Shown in pieces: positions 4,269 to 20,884 of a stretch of DNA of 20,926 nucleotides (the first letter of the stretch is position 1; every line of letters starts with the position of its first letter). A model generated the notes under the pieces. It searched no databases. It saw nothing but the letters and a program-made list of their open reading frames with translations, and was not told the DNA's origin. A program made the translations under genes and the position numbers. Source of the stretch: a virus; IMG/VR virus record IMGVR_UViG_3300007512_000248, positions 1 to 20,926 of that record; one strand, 5' to 3'.

Positions 4269-4298
4269 CCATTAAATACTGACTATTTGGAGATTCCT

Positions 4299-4556
4299 AT
4301 GTCAACCGTGCAAACCAGTCTGCGCCTAGATGAAAATCAGTTTCGTGAGGCCAAGGAGATCCTCTCCCAGCTCGGCATGAACTTTACGGAAGCCGTAAAT
4401 ATCTTTACCAATATGGTGGTCTTAAACAGAGGACTTCCATTTCATGTCAAGCTCCCCAACCAGGAGACCGAAAACACACTGCGCGAGATCCGTGGTGGTG
4501 ATGGAGTTGAAGAGATCACCCTCGATCAACTTCATCAAGAAGCAGACCAACTATGA
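4299..4556 (+). CDS. Type II antitoxin, RelB/DinJ family
   Basis: An 85-residue protein beginning MSTVQTSLRLDENQFREAKE, with an N-terminal ribbon-helix-helix DNA-binding region (residues about 1-50) and the family signature GLPFHVKLPNQET near residues 50-62. The Asp/Glu-rich C-terminus should wrap and neutralise the toxin. The start ATG at 4299 is preceded by TTGGAG with six bases between. Its TGA overlaps the toxin ATG (ATGA), the usual coupling of these pairs. It is oriented against the flanking phage packaging genes, so it behaves as an independently expressed cargo module. Confidence 0.85.
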   Translation: MSTVQTSLRLDENQFREAKEILSQLGMNFTEAVNIFTNMVVLNRGLPFHVKLPNQETENTLREIRGGDGVEEITLDQLHQEADQL

Positions 4557-4828
4557 GAAGGCTGTTCCGGCACAAACAGTTCAAGAAAGACTTTCTCAAA
4601 GTACGCTCTACAGACCAACAGACTGAAAAGCTATTTCTCTATATCGCTGCACTACTTGAGGAAAAGACCCTCCCCCCGGAATCCAGAGATCATCCATTAA
4701 CCGGAGAGTGGCGTGATTTCCGGGAATTTCATTTAGGGGGTGACCTCTTGCTCATCTACAAACTGGATGGGGACCGTATCACGCTTGCTCGAATCGGCTC
4801 CCATGCCCAACTCTTCAAAAAGATGTAA
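4553..4828 (+). CDS. yafQ: mRNA interferase toxin, YafQ type (RelE superfamily)
   Basis: A 91-residue basic protein. The C-terminal half contains DHPLTGEWRDFREFHLGGD, then LLLIYKLDGD and ARIGSHAQLF, which is the YafQ pattern. The residues matching the YafQ active site are all present: His47, His60, Asp64, His84 and Phe88. YafQ-type toxins cut mRNA on the ribosome and are held inactive by the DinJ-type antitoxin encoded just upstream. Nothing suggests inactivation. It ends 12 bp before the converging terminase gene, with no terminator between, so the transcripts should overlap. In a prophage the pair may stabilise the lysogen or act in phage defence; that role is inferred. Confidence 0.87.
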   Translation: MRRLFRHKQFKKDFLKVRSTDQQTEKLFLYIAALLEEKTLPPESRDHPLTGEWRDFREFHLGGDLLLIYKLDGDRITLARIGSHAQLFKKM

Positions 4829-7966: not shown

Positions 7967-8342
7967 AAACCTTCTCCCGGTAGAGCATCACAAATCCGTT
8001 GAAGGAGAGCTCGGCCGTATAGGTAAGTTCCTTCCAATCAGATACCAGATCATCATTCACCCATTCCAGCGGCACCACTACTCTCCAATGTTGCCGATCC
8101 AGACGGTACATCAAGACAGGGATCAAACCACTACTAGCCTGATCACAACACTGCCGCCACCATGAACCAATAGATCTCTCCTTGGCTCGCTTTACCTCCA
8201 GAGCAACTCCATCCAGCAGCACATCATGCCCGCCATTGGCCCACTGCTGCAGGTTACGAGAGCAATCAAACCCCTCATCACGAAGCATCCGTGCAACCTC
8301 CTGCTCCCCTGCTCTCCCCTTGATCCGTTGTGATCTCCCCAT
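7959..8342 (-). CDS. PD-(D/E)XK nuclease, Holliday junction resolvase-like
   Basis: A 127-residue protein whose N-terminal half matches a small archaeal/phage-type resolvase: GRAGEQEVARMLRDEGFDCS (first catalytic Glu), then GGHDVLLDGVALEVKRAKE with the Asp and the Glu-x-Lys of the PD-(D/E)XK active site. Such enzymes cut branched DNA during replication and recombination or before packaging. ATG 8342 overlaps the polymerase TAA stop by one base (TAATG), giving coupled translation; the frame extends to a TTG at 8357 that is less likely. C-terminal residues 70-127 contain several Trp and are not recognised. It could alternatively be a more general structure-specific endonuclease. Confidence 0.75.
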   Translation of the reverse strand: MGRSQRIKGRAGEQEVARMLRDEGFDCSRNLQQWANGGHDVLLDGVALEVKRAKERSIGSWWRQCCDQASSGLIPVLMYRLDRQHWRVVVPLEWVNDDLVSDWKELTYTAELSFNGFVMLYREKVCE

Positions 8343-11300
8343 TACTTGGCAGCCCAACTAGAGCCAATTGATGCGTCGACCAACTTATTGGTGTCAGCCC
8401 CGGGGAATATCTGTAAGAACCCCTGAGTCATAGCGTCCTCAACAATCAATGCAACATTCTCTGCAGCAGCATCCTCCACCTCAACCACAATCTCATCATG
8501 CACAACTGCAAGGATCTTGGACGGGTATGAGCGCAGCATCTCCTCAAGGATTGCCAGTGCTGCATAAATTACATCGGCAGCAGCCCCTTGGACCGGGTAG
8601 TTGTAGCAGACCGAAGGCGCAGGATTCTTCCCAACATCCACCCGGCGGGCACCTGCAGTGATCAAATACCCCTTCTCCCGACCAAAACGATACTGCTCCT
8701 TTCGCCACTGATTCAGCGTTGGGTACTTCTTCTCCCATGAATCAATATAGGTATCAGCCTCAGACTGGCTCACCTTGAGTCGCTTTGCCAACAGTGCAGC
8801 ACCCATTCCATACTGTTGGCCAAAAGTAACCACCTTGGCTTGAGCACGTTGCCGTTTGGTTACTTTCTCCAATGACACCTTAAACATCACCGCAGCGGTT
8901 GCCTGGTGCATATCCTCACCATTGCTGAACATCTCTTTCAGAACCCTCTCATCAGCAAGCTCAGCTGCCGCACGCACCTCAACCTGTGAGTAGTCACAGA
9001 TCACCATCTTCCTGCCAGCAGGTGCAACAAATAGTCCTCGAAAGGCGTTACTGTTGGGCATGTTTTGGAGATTGGGCCCTGATGAACTCATCCGCCCCGT
9101 TCGCGCACGACTGATTGCAAACGACCCATAGATTCGCCCATTGATAACCTTACGTGCCAACCCCTCACCAAAGGTCTTGAGAATCGTCCCCCGCTTTTGT
9201 CGTAACAGGAATACAGCAAAGATCCGCTGGTACTGTGCAGGGATCACTCTCTTATCAAACAACTCCCGGAGAGCATCACCACCCGTTGAGAGTGCCCCAC
9301 TCTTGGTCCGTGGCCATCTTCGTAGCACAGGAACCGGCATCACCTGACGAACCCATCCAGCAATCTGTTTCGGAGAGTTCCAGTTCTTTACAGCAGGAAC
9401 ACGTCTCTCCAGAAAACTGGTTGCCAATACATGCCCACGTTCCAACTTATGAATCATCCGGCGATGAGCCAGTAGATCCAGCTGCATTCCGGAGCGCTCC
9501 ATCTCAATGACCGGTCGTGTTGCATTACGGAGTAGCTCATAACCACCCCACACACCCAGTTCCTCCATCTGCGTATTCAAGATATTCCAGAGCAGCCAGG
9601 CAACCTCCGCATCCTTCAGCGCATACTCAAGCTGGCCTCTACTCAACTCACCGTGCCAATTAGACTTCTGATACTGCTTGTCTAGCCTCACATCCAACAG
9701 TGCAAGAGAGGCAACATCAAGACCGATAGTGGCACCAGAGATAGCTGCCCATGCCATCATCCCATCCTCACACATCACATCGCACCCAGCTTCCTGCATC
9801 CAGCGCATCTCAAACGATGCATTCCAGACCACAAAGTGGCCGCCCTCCATCACATCCGCTATTGCAGAGAGACCTCCCACACAATCCAGGTCCACAATGA
9901 AACCATCCCCATCACGCCAGAACTGGGCAAGGCGCACCCGGTTCACCTCTGGACTATCAAGGGATCGCAAACCGACCGTCTCAAAATCCATCCCCACAAC
10001 GCCACCCACACAAATGTTGCGGATCAGCTCCTTCGCCTCTGAGATATCAGTAACAACCAGAATTGACGTGGCATCCTCCGGGGAGTCCTCAAGAGCCAGA
10101 TTTCCAGAAATGTTACCTGTAACTGTTACCCCACCCCTGTTTGTACTCTCTATAGGGTAAACAGTAGTAGTAACAACATCCCTGTTCCTCTCTATATTGT
10201 TTGTAATAGAAGATTTAGGGGTAACAGGTAACAAACCAGTAGTTGTTCCACTATTTACAACAACTTGCGCTGTTACCTCTTCTGTTACCCCATCCGTTAC
10301 CCCACCACTAGAGGTAACCGAAGCGTGGGCAACCACGTTACCTGTAACCGTTACCCCATCCTCTTTTTCTAAAACTTTTGGCTTCCAACCAGCGCTTACC
10401 TTCTTTTTTACCGGGTGGCGCAGCTTGGTTTTCTCCCAACCCATCTTCGCAAGCGTCTGGGCGACTACAATATGCTGCACTCTTGTTACCCTATTGGTGT
10501 CCATCGTGAAGCGATCCATCCAGAAATCAGCGGGGAAAAACTTGTCCAGCGGCTCTGGACGCTGTCGCCAACCAACATTTTCAATCCGATCACTACCATC
10601 TATGGTCTCTGGAATAGGCTCATGGGTGATGTACATCTTCACCTCCTCAGCCATCAAGTCCTCGGCGTAACGCTCATCCTGCTCCTGTTGGGCTATCTGC
10701 AGGATGGTCTTATCCTCAATCCACCACTTGTCTCCCTGCTTATAGCGCACCACAGCCTCTGCCCATAACTGATCCCGATCCCGCTCCAGTGCCGTCAGAT
10801 CAATATCCCGTTCGACAGTGACTGGCCAGAAGCGACGACCACCAGAAGAGTCCTTCAGGTAACCGGTTCCGGTAGGGTTAAAGGTTCCAGCCATAGCGCA
10901 GCGACGAGGAAACTCCTGAACCGTGCGTCCATAAGGGGGGCGAAATTTGTCATTGCGACAAGAGATAAACTCCTTGATATTCCCAACCTCCGCCTTAGAC
11001 ATCGCCTCCAGCTCAGAGATCTCGACAATCCAGTGCCCCAATAACTCCTGCTTTGCATCCTTGTGGCCAATATGACTCAACCCATCCTTGAACCACTTAT
11101 CATTAACAGCCAGTGTCGAGAGCATTGATGACTTCTTGCGCCCCTGGGTACCCTCCAACACCAGAATCGTGTCGCACTTCACCCCAGGATTAAGCCCTCT
11201 TGCTGCCGCACCAATGAGCCACTTGGAACCAACCGCAGTGAGGTACTCCTCTGGCCCCTCTGCATAACAGTAACTCTTCAGCCAATTATCGATCCGTGGC

Positions 11301-12454
11301 ACCCCATCCCAATCAATCCCCTCCAGATAGTTGACCAGATCATCGTATGGGTTCTTGAAAGCCACAGAGATCACCACAGAACGTATCTGCTTCTCACTGC
11401 AGTTGAGTCCCTGCTGGTTCAGCCAGATCGTCAGCTCCGTATCATCTGTATCTCGCCAGATTCTCGGATACTCCTCACCAGCAGCATCCCATGGCATCGG
11501 TGCCATCACATCTACCATTGAGCTGAACAGGTTGAACTTAATCTTCTTCTTTAGCTCCGGTGCGTGCAGCAGTGGCACTGCAATATTGTGAGAGTTCTTC
11601 AGTGGGGTTGGGTTTTTACCATTGGTGTAGTGCCAACGATCCCGCCAATCACTCCAGCGGTCCTCTAGATCCTCCATTGTGGTGATTGGCATCTCAGCCT
11701 GAATCATCCCGCCTAATGTCTTGGGGTCTCCCCCAGCATTTAGCCAGTCACTCACATCCCCATGCTCTTTCAGCCCCGGGAACTCCAGTACGCGAATAGA
11801 GCGAACGACTGGCAACAGACTCTTAACAATCTCCGTCGCATGTTTTCTCCCCACAAGGTCATTATCTGGCAACACCACAACATTAAGACCCTTGAACTCG
11901 GCAGTGTAATGATCCTTCCACTTACCATTGCCCGCACCATCAAAATTACAGGTTGCTGTCAGCCCCAACCCCACCAGCCGATCAACATCCTTCTCTCCTT
12001 CGCAGATAAACACCACCCCTTTGTCTACCCTATCCCCCCAGGAGAACTGGTGGAGCGCAGACAATCGGTATAGCGGCTTGCGGTCGATAAACCCAATCCC
12101 CCCCTTCCAACCATTCTTGTATTTCTCCCCCACGACCCCACAACGAAAACTCTTCTTCCCATCAACAGAGACACTACGCCGTTTGGTGAAGGCGTAACTG
12201 CCATCTCCGTACTCGTAGGTGTAGTCCATTGGTGCCGGTTTAGGCAGTAGCCCGCGCTGAATCAGCTCCTTCTGCACATCCTTGAAATCACACCCAGCGT
12301 GACAATGAAAAATGACATCCCTCTGCTTTCCCGCAGAGATTGAAAGAGAGGCCGTTTTGTCATCATGCGCCGGACATCTGCAGATCCACCCCTCCCCGGA
12401 TACTCTTGCGTCTCCCAGTGCCTGGGCAATTTTCTCGACATCAGTTACACCCAT
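8342..12454 (-). CDS. Multidomain replication protein: zinc finger-Toprim primase, VirE-type helicase, 3'-5' exonuclease and family A DNA polymerase
   Basis: A 1370-residue single chain. From the N-terminus: a CHC2-like zinc finger (CRCPAHDD, then HCHAGC; Cys25, Cys27, His30, Cys51, Cys55); a Toprim domain with VVFICEGEKDVDRLVGLG (Glu152) and VVVLPDND; a VirE/SF3-type helicase with Walker A EGTQGRKKSS (from 434), acidic Walker B region IVEISELEAMSK and sensor AGTFNPTGTGYL; a low-complexity linker (about 690-800) rich in Val-Thr; a DnaQ-like proofreading exonuclease with DFET (Asp823), NASFE and YALKDAE; and a PolA-type polymerase with motif A DYSQVEVR (Asp1154), motif B RQRAQAKVVTFGQQYGMG and motif C VVHDE (Asp1320). 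All catalytic motifs look intact. The ATG at 12454 is preceded by GGAGGGG at ideal spacing; upstream GTG/ATG are weaker. It could prime, unwind and copy phage DNA by itself. Confidence 0.92.
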   Translation of the reverse strand: MGVTDVEKIAQALGDARVSGEGWICRCPAHDDKTASLSISAGKQRDVIFHCHAGCDFKDVQKELIQRGLLPKPAPMDYTYEYGDGSYAFTKRRSVSVDGKKSFRCGVVGEKYKNGWKGGIGFIDRKPLYRLSALHQFSWGDRVDKGVVFICEGEKDVDRLVGLGLTATCNFDGAGNGKWKDHYTAEFKGLNVVVLPDNDLVGRKHATEIVKSLLPVVRSIRVLEFPGLKEHGDVSDWLNAGGDPKTLGGMIQAEMPITTMEDLEDRWSDWRDRWHYTNGKNPTPLKNSHNIAVPLLHAPELKKKIKFNLFSSMVDVMAPMPWDAAGEEYPRIWRDTDDTELTIWLNQQGLNCSEKQIRSVVISVAFKNPYDDLVNYLEGIDWDGVPRIDNWLKSYCYAEGPEEYLTAVGSKWLIGAAARGLNPGVKCDTILVLEGTQGRKKSSMLSTLAVNDKWFKDGLSHIGHKDAKQELLGHWIVEISELEAMSKAEVGNIKEFISCRNDKFRPPYGRTVQEFPRRCAMAGTFNPTGTGYLKDSSGGRRFWPVTVERDIDLTALERDRDQLWAEAVVRYKQGDKWWIEDKTILQIAQQEQDERYAEDLMAEEVKMYITHEPIPETIDGSDRIENVGWRQRPEPLDKFFPADFWMDRFTMDTNRVTRVQHIVVAQTLAKMGWEKTKLRHPVKKKVSAGWKPKVLEKEDGVTVTGNVVAHASVTSSGGVTDGVTEEVTAQVVVNSGTTTGLLPVTPKSSITNNIERNRDVVTTTVYPIESTNRGGVTVTGNISGNLALEDSPEDATSILVVTDISEAKELIRNICVGGVVGMDFETVGLRSLDSPEVNRVRLAQFWRDGDGFIVDLDCVGGLSAIADVMEGGHFVVWNASFEMRWMQEAGCDVMCEDGMMAWAAISGATIGLDVASLALLDVRLDKQYQKSNWHGELSRGQLEYALKDAEVAWLLWNILNTQMEELGVWGGYELLRNATRPVIEMERSGMQLDLLAHRRMIHKLERGHVLATSFLERRVPAVKNWNSPKQIAGWVRQVMPVPVLRRWPRTKSGALSTGGDALRELFDKRVIPAQYQRIFAVFLLRQKRGTILKTFGEGLARKVINGRIYGSFAISRARTGRMSSSGPNLQNMPNSNAFRGLFVAPAGRKMVICDYSQVEVRAAAELADERVLKEMFSNGEDMHQATAAVMFKVSLEKVTKRQRAQAKVVTFGQQYGMGAALLAKRLKVSQSEADTYIDSWEKKYPTLNQWRKEQYRFGREKGYLITAGARRVDVGKNPAPSVCYNYPVQGAAADVIYAALAILEEMLRSYPSKILAVVHDEIVVEVEDAAAENVALIVEDAMTQGFLQIFPGADTNKLVDASIGSSWAAK
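10112..10358. repeat. Iteron-like GTTACC/GGTAAC cluster, candidate replication origin inside the replication gene
   Basis: Ten copies of the hexamer GTTACC, on either strand, lie in 247 bp (starts 10112, 10125, 10220, 10227, 10272, 10284, 10296, 10313, 10337, 10350), with an eleventh at 10485. Three are spaced exactly 12 bp apart (10272, 10284, 10296). Two composite blocks, 10112-10133 and 10337-10358, are identical at 21 of 22 positions. The hexamer is used in different reading frames, encoding Val-Thr, Gly-Asn or Leu-Pro, so the repetition is held at DNA level and not only at protein level. Lambda places its origin iterons in the linker-coding part of its O gene, and this is the same arrangement. 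Origin function is inferred. Confidence 0.6.
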
Positions 12455-12548
12455 TGCCAACCCCTCCATCACTATTGGAGACCAAGCAATCTATTGACGG
12501 CAAGTTCTGGTAACAATCATCCATATTCATCAGCTTCTCCTTGAAGGG

Positions 12549-20621: not shown

Positions 20622-20750
20622 CGCGCCCGGAAGGGACGGCTCTGACGCCCGGAAGGTTTTTTGGGGCAATTCTACATTCACCTTAACTTTTTGAAGCATA
20701 TAGACCCGTTGGGGCATTTTTGGGGCACGCCCGGAAGGTTTTTTGAGGCA
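20622..20750. repeat. tRNA-3'-end copies and TTGGGGCA repeats at the prophage end (candidate att core and arm sites)
   Basis: The sequence CGCCCGGAAGG, part of the tRNA acceptor/T-stem region, occurs three times before the tRNA: 20624-20634 (as the 13-mer CGCGCCCGGAAGG from 20622, identical to tRNA positions 20811-20823), 20646-20656 and 20728-20738. A second motif, TTGGGGCA, occurs at 20661, 20709 and 20720, with a one-base variant at 20743. Repeats of this kind beside an integrase are expected for Int core and arm binding. The copies are seen directly; their use by the integrase is inferred. Confidence 0.6.
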
Positions 20751-20756
20751 CGCATG

Positions 20757-20781
20757 AAAAAAGGAGCTAAAAAGCTCCTTT
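20757..20781 (-). terminator. Rho-independent terminator downstream of tRNA-Arg
   Basis: A perfect 8-bp stem, AAGGAGCT-AAAA-AGCTCCTT, is followed on the minus strand by six T's. It lies 27-51 bp past the tRNA CCA end and would end tRNA transcription; on the plus strand the T-run is weaker, so it may act less well for the integrase. Confidence 0.75.
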
Positions 20782-20807
20782 AATCAACAAGTTACAACTT
20801 TGGTATA

Positions 20808-20884
20808 TGGCGCGCCCGGAAGGATTCGAACCTCCGACACCTTAGTTCGTAGCCAAGTACTCTATCCAGCTGAGCTACGGGCGC
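20808..20884 (-). tRNA. tRNA-Arg (anticodon ACG), prophage attachment site
   Basis: On the minus strand a complete 77-nt tRNA folds from GCGCCCGTAGCTCAGCTGG to an encoded CCA. The acceptor stem GCGCCCG/CGGGCGC is perfect, the T-arm is GGAGG-TTCGAAT-CC(T)TCC, and the anticodon loop CTACGAA gives ACG. The sequence is very like enterobacterial tRNA-Arg(ACG). The anticodon is read by A34-to-inosine editing in bacteria. The integrase gene faces its 3' end, so integration most likely uses that end and leaves the tRNA intact. Confidence 0.96.

Follow-up and report, generated by a model that had tools for sequence, protein, structure and literature searches.

The closest described counterparts of the locus analysed here are the PICI/SaPI origins, in which the gene of a self-loading helicase, Rep or Pri-Rep, is followed immediately on its 3' side by two sets of iterons that flank an AT-rich region (PMC6092414), and in systems of this type the iterons are recognised by the C-terminal domain of the helicase (PMC7581432). 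In SCCmec, the Cch2 helicase binds AAGTG direct repeats downstream of the operon via its C-terminal domain (PMC7581432). The Sfi21-type origin of Streptococcus thermophilus phages is a 302-bp noncoding element in the replication module that displays origin behaviour (PMC6356513). In phage lambda, the origin iterons lie inside the initiator gene O and are longer than hexamers. The DNA analysed here is a virus record of IMG/VR (hereafter the window, meaning the whole stretch of 20,926 bases), and it resembles the PICI/SaPI origins in carrying a repeat array next to a helicase of the self-loading SF3 type, with iterons on both sides of an AT-rich gap.

The array (10112..10355, assigned to neither strand) spans 244 bp and holds ten exact copies of GTTACC/GGTAAC in both orientations, with starts at 10112, 10125, 10220, 10227, 10272, 10284, 10296, 10313, 10337 and 10350; an eleventh copy at 10485 lies beyond the cluster. 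Three copies form a GTTACC triple on the plus strand (10272..10301, starts 10272/10284/10296) with an exact spacing of 12 bp, and GGTAAC is the most strongly clustered hexamer in the whole window. An 89-bp gap within the array (10131..10219, no strand) has an AT content of 0.62 versus 0.50 for the window and is a candidate melting region, and the repeats that border it (10220/10227 versus 10112/10125) are in opposite orientation. As the far side of this gap has only two exact copies, the dyad in the window is lopsided. A BLASTN search of the array region against phages returned only 8 weak, chance-like matches.

The array lies inside an open reading frame, where it corresponds to a linker of amino acids 705-787, and a referee might therefore object that a low-complexity Val-Thr/Gly-Asn linker has been selected and that the hexamers are a by-product of repeated codons. 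In favor of this explanation, translation runs through the repeats, and GGTAAC also underlies the repeated GN/VT units of tail-fibre-like proteins. Against it, random synonymous codons drawn from the gene's own usage gave a mean of 2.0 hexamers (maximum 8) and synonymous codons shuffled within the linker a mean of 2.9 (maximum 9), with 0/20000 recodings reaching ten in either control. In addition, the copies occupy two strand orientations and several frames, and the arrays of five VapE relatives with the same hexamer are mostly non-coding. Dinucleotide shuffles of the same 247 bp (n=5000) averaged 0.69 hexamers with a maximum of 6, and none reached ten. As shuffles and synonymous recodings all stay below ten, the cluster is explained by neither composition nor peptide; it is real, and the by-product explanation is all but ruled out. 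A preliminary description of this locus, made from the sequence alone, had reported ten clustered hexamers with three of them 12 bp apart, which held except that the end of the cluster is corrected from 10358 to 10355. Its expectation of about 0.1 copies by chance was a little low, given the shuffle average, its reading of the encoded dipeptides in the gene's frame as Val-Thr, Gly-Asn and Leu-Pro held, and its proposal that selection seems to act on the DNA is backed by both synonymous controls.

The frame containing the array is a single minus-strand ORF of 1376 amino acids (8345..12472) that combines a primase-type N-terminus, a VapE helicase, a predicted winged helix, the translated array, an exonuclease and a polymerase. 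A DnaG-type CHC2 zinc ribbon at aa 22-62 (12287..12409, minus strand; Pfam PF01807, E 2e-4) is a weak match, at 21.6 bits under the curated cut-off of 24.9, and is separated from the helicase by a stretch that looks Toprim-like by eye. Membership of the VapE family is met by the VapE-like SF3/AAA+ helicase domain at aa 383-599 (10676..11326, minus strand; Pfam PF05272, E 6e-72), which scores 242 bits against a cut-off of 25. Beyond the array, a 3'-5' exonuclease at aa 806-969 (9566..10057, minus strand; PF01612, E 4e-11) is followed by a family A DNA polymerase at aa 1030-1374 (8351..9385, minus strand; PF00476, E 3e-70). The array begins at aa 705, approximately where the VapE proteins of relatives end.

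Between helicase and array, a C-terminal winged-helix domain of the helicase is predicted at aa 606-698 (10379..10657, minus strand) from an AF2 model of aa 290-710 built from 41 sequences, with a mean pLDDT of 90.9. At its C-terminal end (model residues 317-409), this model forms a helix-helix-strand-strand unit, which we interpret as a winged helix; the mean pLDDT in blocks of ten residues there is 72 to 94. In both Foldseek and VIA, the top match was 7PDS, the staphylococcal VapE-like PriRep1, a VapE-family helicase solved with dsDNA (Foldseek E 5e-29; VIA Z 33.0, 391 residues aligned, rmsd 7.0), and the next structures, from NrS-1, SaPI5 and poxvirus helicases, were far behind (Z about 11-15). 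A profile search returned 7PDS, titled 'Similar to D. nodosus vapE', as its sole match. A family missing from the lists of these fold comparisons is not thereby ruled out.

It could also be argued that VapE and the polymerase are separate proteins and that the open frame arose by accident or by misassembly, or that internal starts bypass it. Several observations favor this: the linker is covered by a single assembly, the records and loci searched contained no second fusion, in-frame GTG and TTG codons within the array are potential internal starts, and the polymerase gene is separate in four named phages. In a search of 50,697 phage and 72,556 plasmid records, none contained at least 80% of the fusion protein in one place, and the only close locus among viral contigs (L004) shares just aa 1110-1376, at 100%. 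Where the stop could be read (155 VapE loci), the ORF extends no more than 462 nt beyond the VapE match, which is too short for a fused polymerase. In all four named phages that have annotations for both genes (IME1320_01, phiFL4A, NatCom_11578 and phiPaco), the polymerase gene lies upstream of VapE, and the polymerase of the window is therefore differently placed, joined through the proposed origin. Against separate proteins, all 1376 codons are open, whereas each of the other two coding-strand frames has several stops across the array, and aa 788-821 contain no in-frame ATG, GTG or TTG, yet the exonuclease match already begins at aa 806. We consider separate proteins unlikely, and the origin reading would survive them. 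The fusion remains our preferred reading of the gene.

Clusters of the same hexamer were also found elsewhere. In five VapE phages (L020, L025, L050, L057 and L084), a GGTAAC array starts between -35 and +20 nt from the VapE stop codon. As these phages were chosen through the hexamer, only the place of the array carries information, not the hexamer they share. Two of them (L050 and L084) have similar triples spaced by 12 bp, followed by a pair 8 bp apart. GGTAAC arrays also occur at the 3' end of helicases unrelated to VapE, namely those with DUF927 (L054/L062), D5_N (L030), DUF5906 (L005/L110), Toprim (L048) and AAA_25 (L060) domains; a scan of the DUF927 alignment covered four loci only. In a separate observation, the C-terminus of a Toprim/AAA_25 protein (L047) has two stretches that resemble winged helices, with a translated GGTAAC array between them (8251-8440). 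Four other loci (L007, L010, L021 and L038) have long in-frame GN-V-T-GN coding repeats in tail-fibre-like proteins, with GGTAAC nearly all in one orientation, and we regard such coding repeats as an unrelated source of hexamer clusters.

A collection scan with GTTACC and with its reversed control CCATTG returned at least 120 rows for each, so the totals cannot be compared, and mixed-orientation clusters were in modest excess for GTTACC (38/120 versus 11/120). Neighboring genes, picked by eye, were scanned for 28 of these 38 clusters, the first ten of which were selected for an adjoining large ORF; 15 clusters neighbored primase or helicase genes of several families, seven neighbored terminase genes and six neither. 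These neighborhoods bear on the possibility that the repeats serve packaging (pac/cos), partition or operator functions and adjoin the helicase by chance or synteny. It is supported by the seven terminase neighbors, some of which have the cluster in small ORFs directly upstream of the large subunit, and opposed by the 15 primase/helicase neighbors. It is further opposed by VapE loci collected without regard to the hexamer, which carry an array downstream of VapE whose sequence tracks the winged helix, and we judge this explanation very improbable for the window. In three of the scanned collection's loci (L027, L028 and L113), GTTACC clusters lie in or near a ~200-aa ORF that immediately precedes the gene for a GpA-type terminase large subunit, and those clusters may possibly be packaging sites.

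To return to the origin reading, VapE loci were gathered by protein similarity without regard to the hexamer, taking the best 80 of 590 relatives in viral contigs and the best 80 of 581 in bacterial and archaeal genomes; members of these sets are often closely related. Clusters were called by a Poisson test across all hexamers at a score of at least 8. An array was present in the downstream region of 58/78 viral and 54/77 genomic loci. In stretches of up to 3.5 kb, a cluster was found downstream of VapE at 50/71 loci in viral contigs and 42/68 in bacterial genomes, versus 1/71 and 1/68 in equal stretches upstream. When only 600-nt windows around the VapE stop were considered, 38/73 viral and 29/70 genomic loci passed, and none of the matched 600-nt windows upstream of or inside VapE did. 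An array was missing at score 8 from roughly one quarter to one third of the loci. The repeat sequence differs between lineages: GGTAAC is not clustered in the viral VapE set, and other types are, such as TGGGAC, TGGTGA, TTGGAC and CCGGGT. Six of eight named phage records passed (Marinobacter PS3, Pseudomonas U5 and Haddon, Corynebacterium IME1320_01, Enterococcus phiFL4A and Fusobacterium phiPaco), NatCom_11578 fell under the threshold with a cluster score of 7.1, and Bacteroides BF503P4 had no array.

Across 73 non-redundant arrays, the median values are 10 copies and a span of 277 bp, and the largest gap has a median of 87 bp (quartiles 79, 104). Of these 73, 46 start no more than 100 nt from the VapE stop, 11 within 1 kb and 16 beyond 1 kb. 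The largest gap is richer in AT than its own locus in 68/72 arrays, and the repeats flanking it run in opposite directions in 63/74, versus 38.3 expected from shuffled orientations. With its ten copies over 244 bp, 89-bp gap and opposite inner repeats, the window array matches this architecture of its relatives. Other arrays are partly translated too: at five loci (L245, L249, L263, L276 and L292) they overlap the end of the VapE ORF, and at L263 the ORF contains the whole array. The window goes furthest, with a frame that continues past the array into a polymerase. Near-perfect dyads around the gap were observed in three arrays (L155, L238 and L248) and suggest two head-to-head helicase hexamers. 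An GCGCGTAAG element was found in three named phages and, with one mismatch allowed, in 16/81 downstream stretches; it is absent from the window array. In three phages from different hosts (L211, L213 and L215), a word resembling GCGCGTAAG lies close to the distal end of the stretch taken as the origin.

Among 49 non-redundant viral arrays, sharing of the same repeat tracks winged-helix identity after ATPase identity is removed (partial r 0.49, 0/2000 permutations), and the reverse test, with the winged helix removed, gave a partial r of -0.29 for ATPase identity. The 25 pairs listed as most similar in the ATPase domain (96-99% identity) while differing in their repeats had winged-helix identities of 0.60-0.82. 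Individual residues also go with repeat type, in rows made non-redundant at 95% from which four array loci were excluded, the motif not being found. A Gln four residues after a conserved Trp accompanies GTGAC arrays in 5/5 viral cases versus 0/33 others, and in 5/6 versus 1/30 in the separate genome set, where L272 is the miss and L276 the extra. A Ser after RV accompanies TT-type repeats (8/8 viral, 5/6 genomic), and a Gly at this place is found with GT-type repeats in 16 viral and 7 genomic rows, with other repeats in 8 and 8, and with TT repeats in 0 and 1. The Fisher values (2e-6, 9e-5) are descriptive only, as relatedness remains among the rows. These rules come from proteins 31-45% identical to that of the window and do not predict its hexamer. 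That array sequence follows the C-terminal winged helix of VapE and not the ATPase suggests that the winged helix reads the repeats, and the winged helix at aa ~606-698 of the fusion is the likely reader in the window, with binding inferred in the absence of binding data.

This covariation also bears on the alternative that the segment is a structured RNA of an early transcript. The transcript does fold better than its shuffles (z -5.1), but repeats in both orientations form stems automatically, no Rfam family matches the array, and the array sequence of relatives covaries with a winged helix of DNA-binding type, which together leave a structured RNA next to no room. We retain the origin reading. 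The preliminary description had proposed the cluster as a candidate replication origin, which sequence comparison supports, with activity untested. The check it suggested, that repeats should persist in related phages while the linker protein varies, is met as far as sequence allows, as the arrays of the five GGTAAC-bearing VapE relatives are mostly non-coding and lie beside the VapE stop, so that the repeats persist without a linker protein to conserve. The binder it named, the N-terminal half or a Cro-like protein, is corrected to the likelier winged helix in the middle of the fusion. Its view of one protein as both initiator and polymerase is matched by VapE helicase and A-family polymerase domains in a single ORF, with their coupling inferred.

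Taken as a whole, the cluster very likely represents the phage's origin of replication, in the form of an iteron array. The array, its place and architecture, the protein domains and the covariation in relatives are shown by computation; binding, melting and firing are inferred, as is the coupling of the polymerase to the origin. In the mechanism we propose, the winged helix following the VapE helicase domain would bind the hexamers on both sides of the 89-bp AT-rich stretch, the self-loading helicase would assemble at the array (as two hexamers, by analogy with SaPI Rep) and melt that stretch, and synthesis would be started by the primase and polymerase parts of the same chain. In relatives, the array is an intergenic element 3' of the VapE gene. 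In the window, the origin would double as a translated linker between domains, as the frame stays open through the array into the exonuclease-polymerase.

Elsewhere in the window, two small genes at 4287-4828 (plus strand), which we take to be a DinJ/RelB-like antitoxin and a YafQ/RelE-like toxin, lie on the strand opposite to the structural genes. The only Rfam match was a tRNA past the integrase, at the right end of the window (20811-20884, minus strand). CCGGAAG-type repeats form a small cluster beside this tRNA (20625-20823), and the region could be an attachment site.

This analysis proposes a specific origin for many phages and prophages whose replication start sites are unmarked, and the iteron sequence may be partly predictable from a few residues of the winged helix. 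In the literature searched, no paper was found on GGTAAC repeats, on VapE with downstream repeats or on VapE with iterons. A bolder joint reading is that the whole initiation machine (primase, origin-reading helicase and polymerase) resides in one chain whose linker is the translated origin, and that VapE phages use a large family of such dyad origins, the iteron sequence of each being set by a few residues of the winged helix in a protein-DNA code that is exchanged as a cassette. We lean toward this reading by a narrow margin. If true, the protein would nucleate on the DNA encoding its own hinge, and polymerase delivery would be tied to the choice of origin.

In comparison with known systems, lambda shares with the window the placement of iterons inside the coding sequence of the initiator. 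The lambda parallel drawn in the preliminary description holds only for this position, and the PICI/SaPI origin is closer. Unlike lambda O, the initiator of the window is a VapE helicase with its own ATPase, and its iterons are hexamers; no Pfam match to an O-family initiator was found in the fusion protein, which has VapE and polymerase domains instead, and the criterion for an O-type initiator is not met. The Sfi21-type origin is noncoding, whereas the window array is coding. SCCmec Cch2 is alike in having repeats downstream of the helicase gene and a C-terminal domain as their reader, the latter inferred for the window, and differs in having only three repeats and a polymerase that is a separate protein. 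With PICI/SaPI origins, the arrays analysed here agree on all computable points. An array immediately 3' of the helicase gene is met, with the window array in the corresponding place but inside an extended ORF, and two iteron sets around an AT-rich stretch are represented by the opposite inner repeats across the gap. A self-loading helicase with a C-terminal DNA-binding domain is met by fold only, through the match to 7PDS, and binding is inferred. The window does not fit a PICI satellite, which has no complete complement of capsid and packaging genes of its own, as it encodes what we take, judging from the ORF translations, to be terminase-, portal- and capsid-like proteins, and the element reads as a phage and not as a PICI. 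The layout known from PICI/SaPI origins (PMC6092414, 2018) here appears in VapE phages, named isolates included. In contrast to the PICI/SaPI origin, the window array lies inside an ORF, where it encodes the linker that joins an A-family polymerase to the helicase, making it the extreme case of a proposed origin that also codes for a helicase-polymerase hinge.
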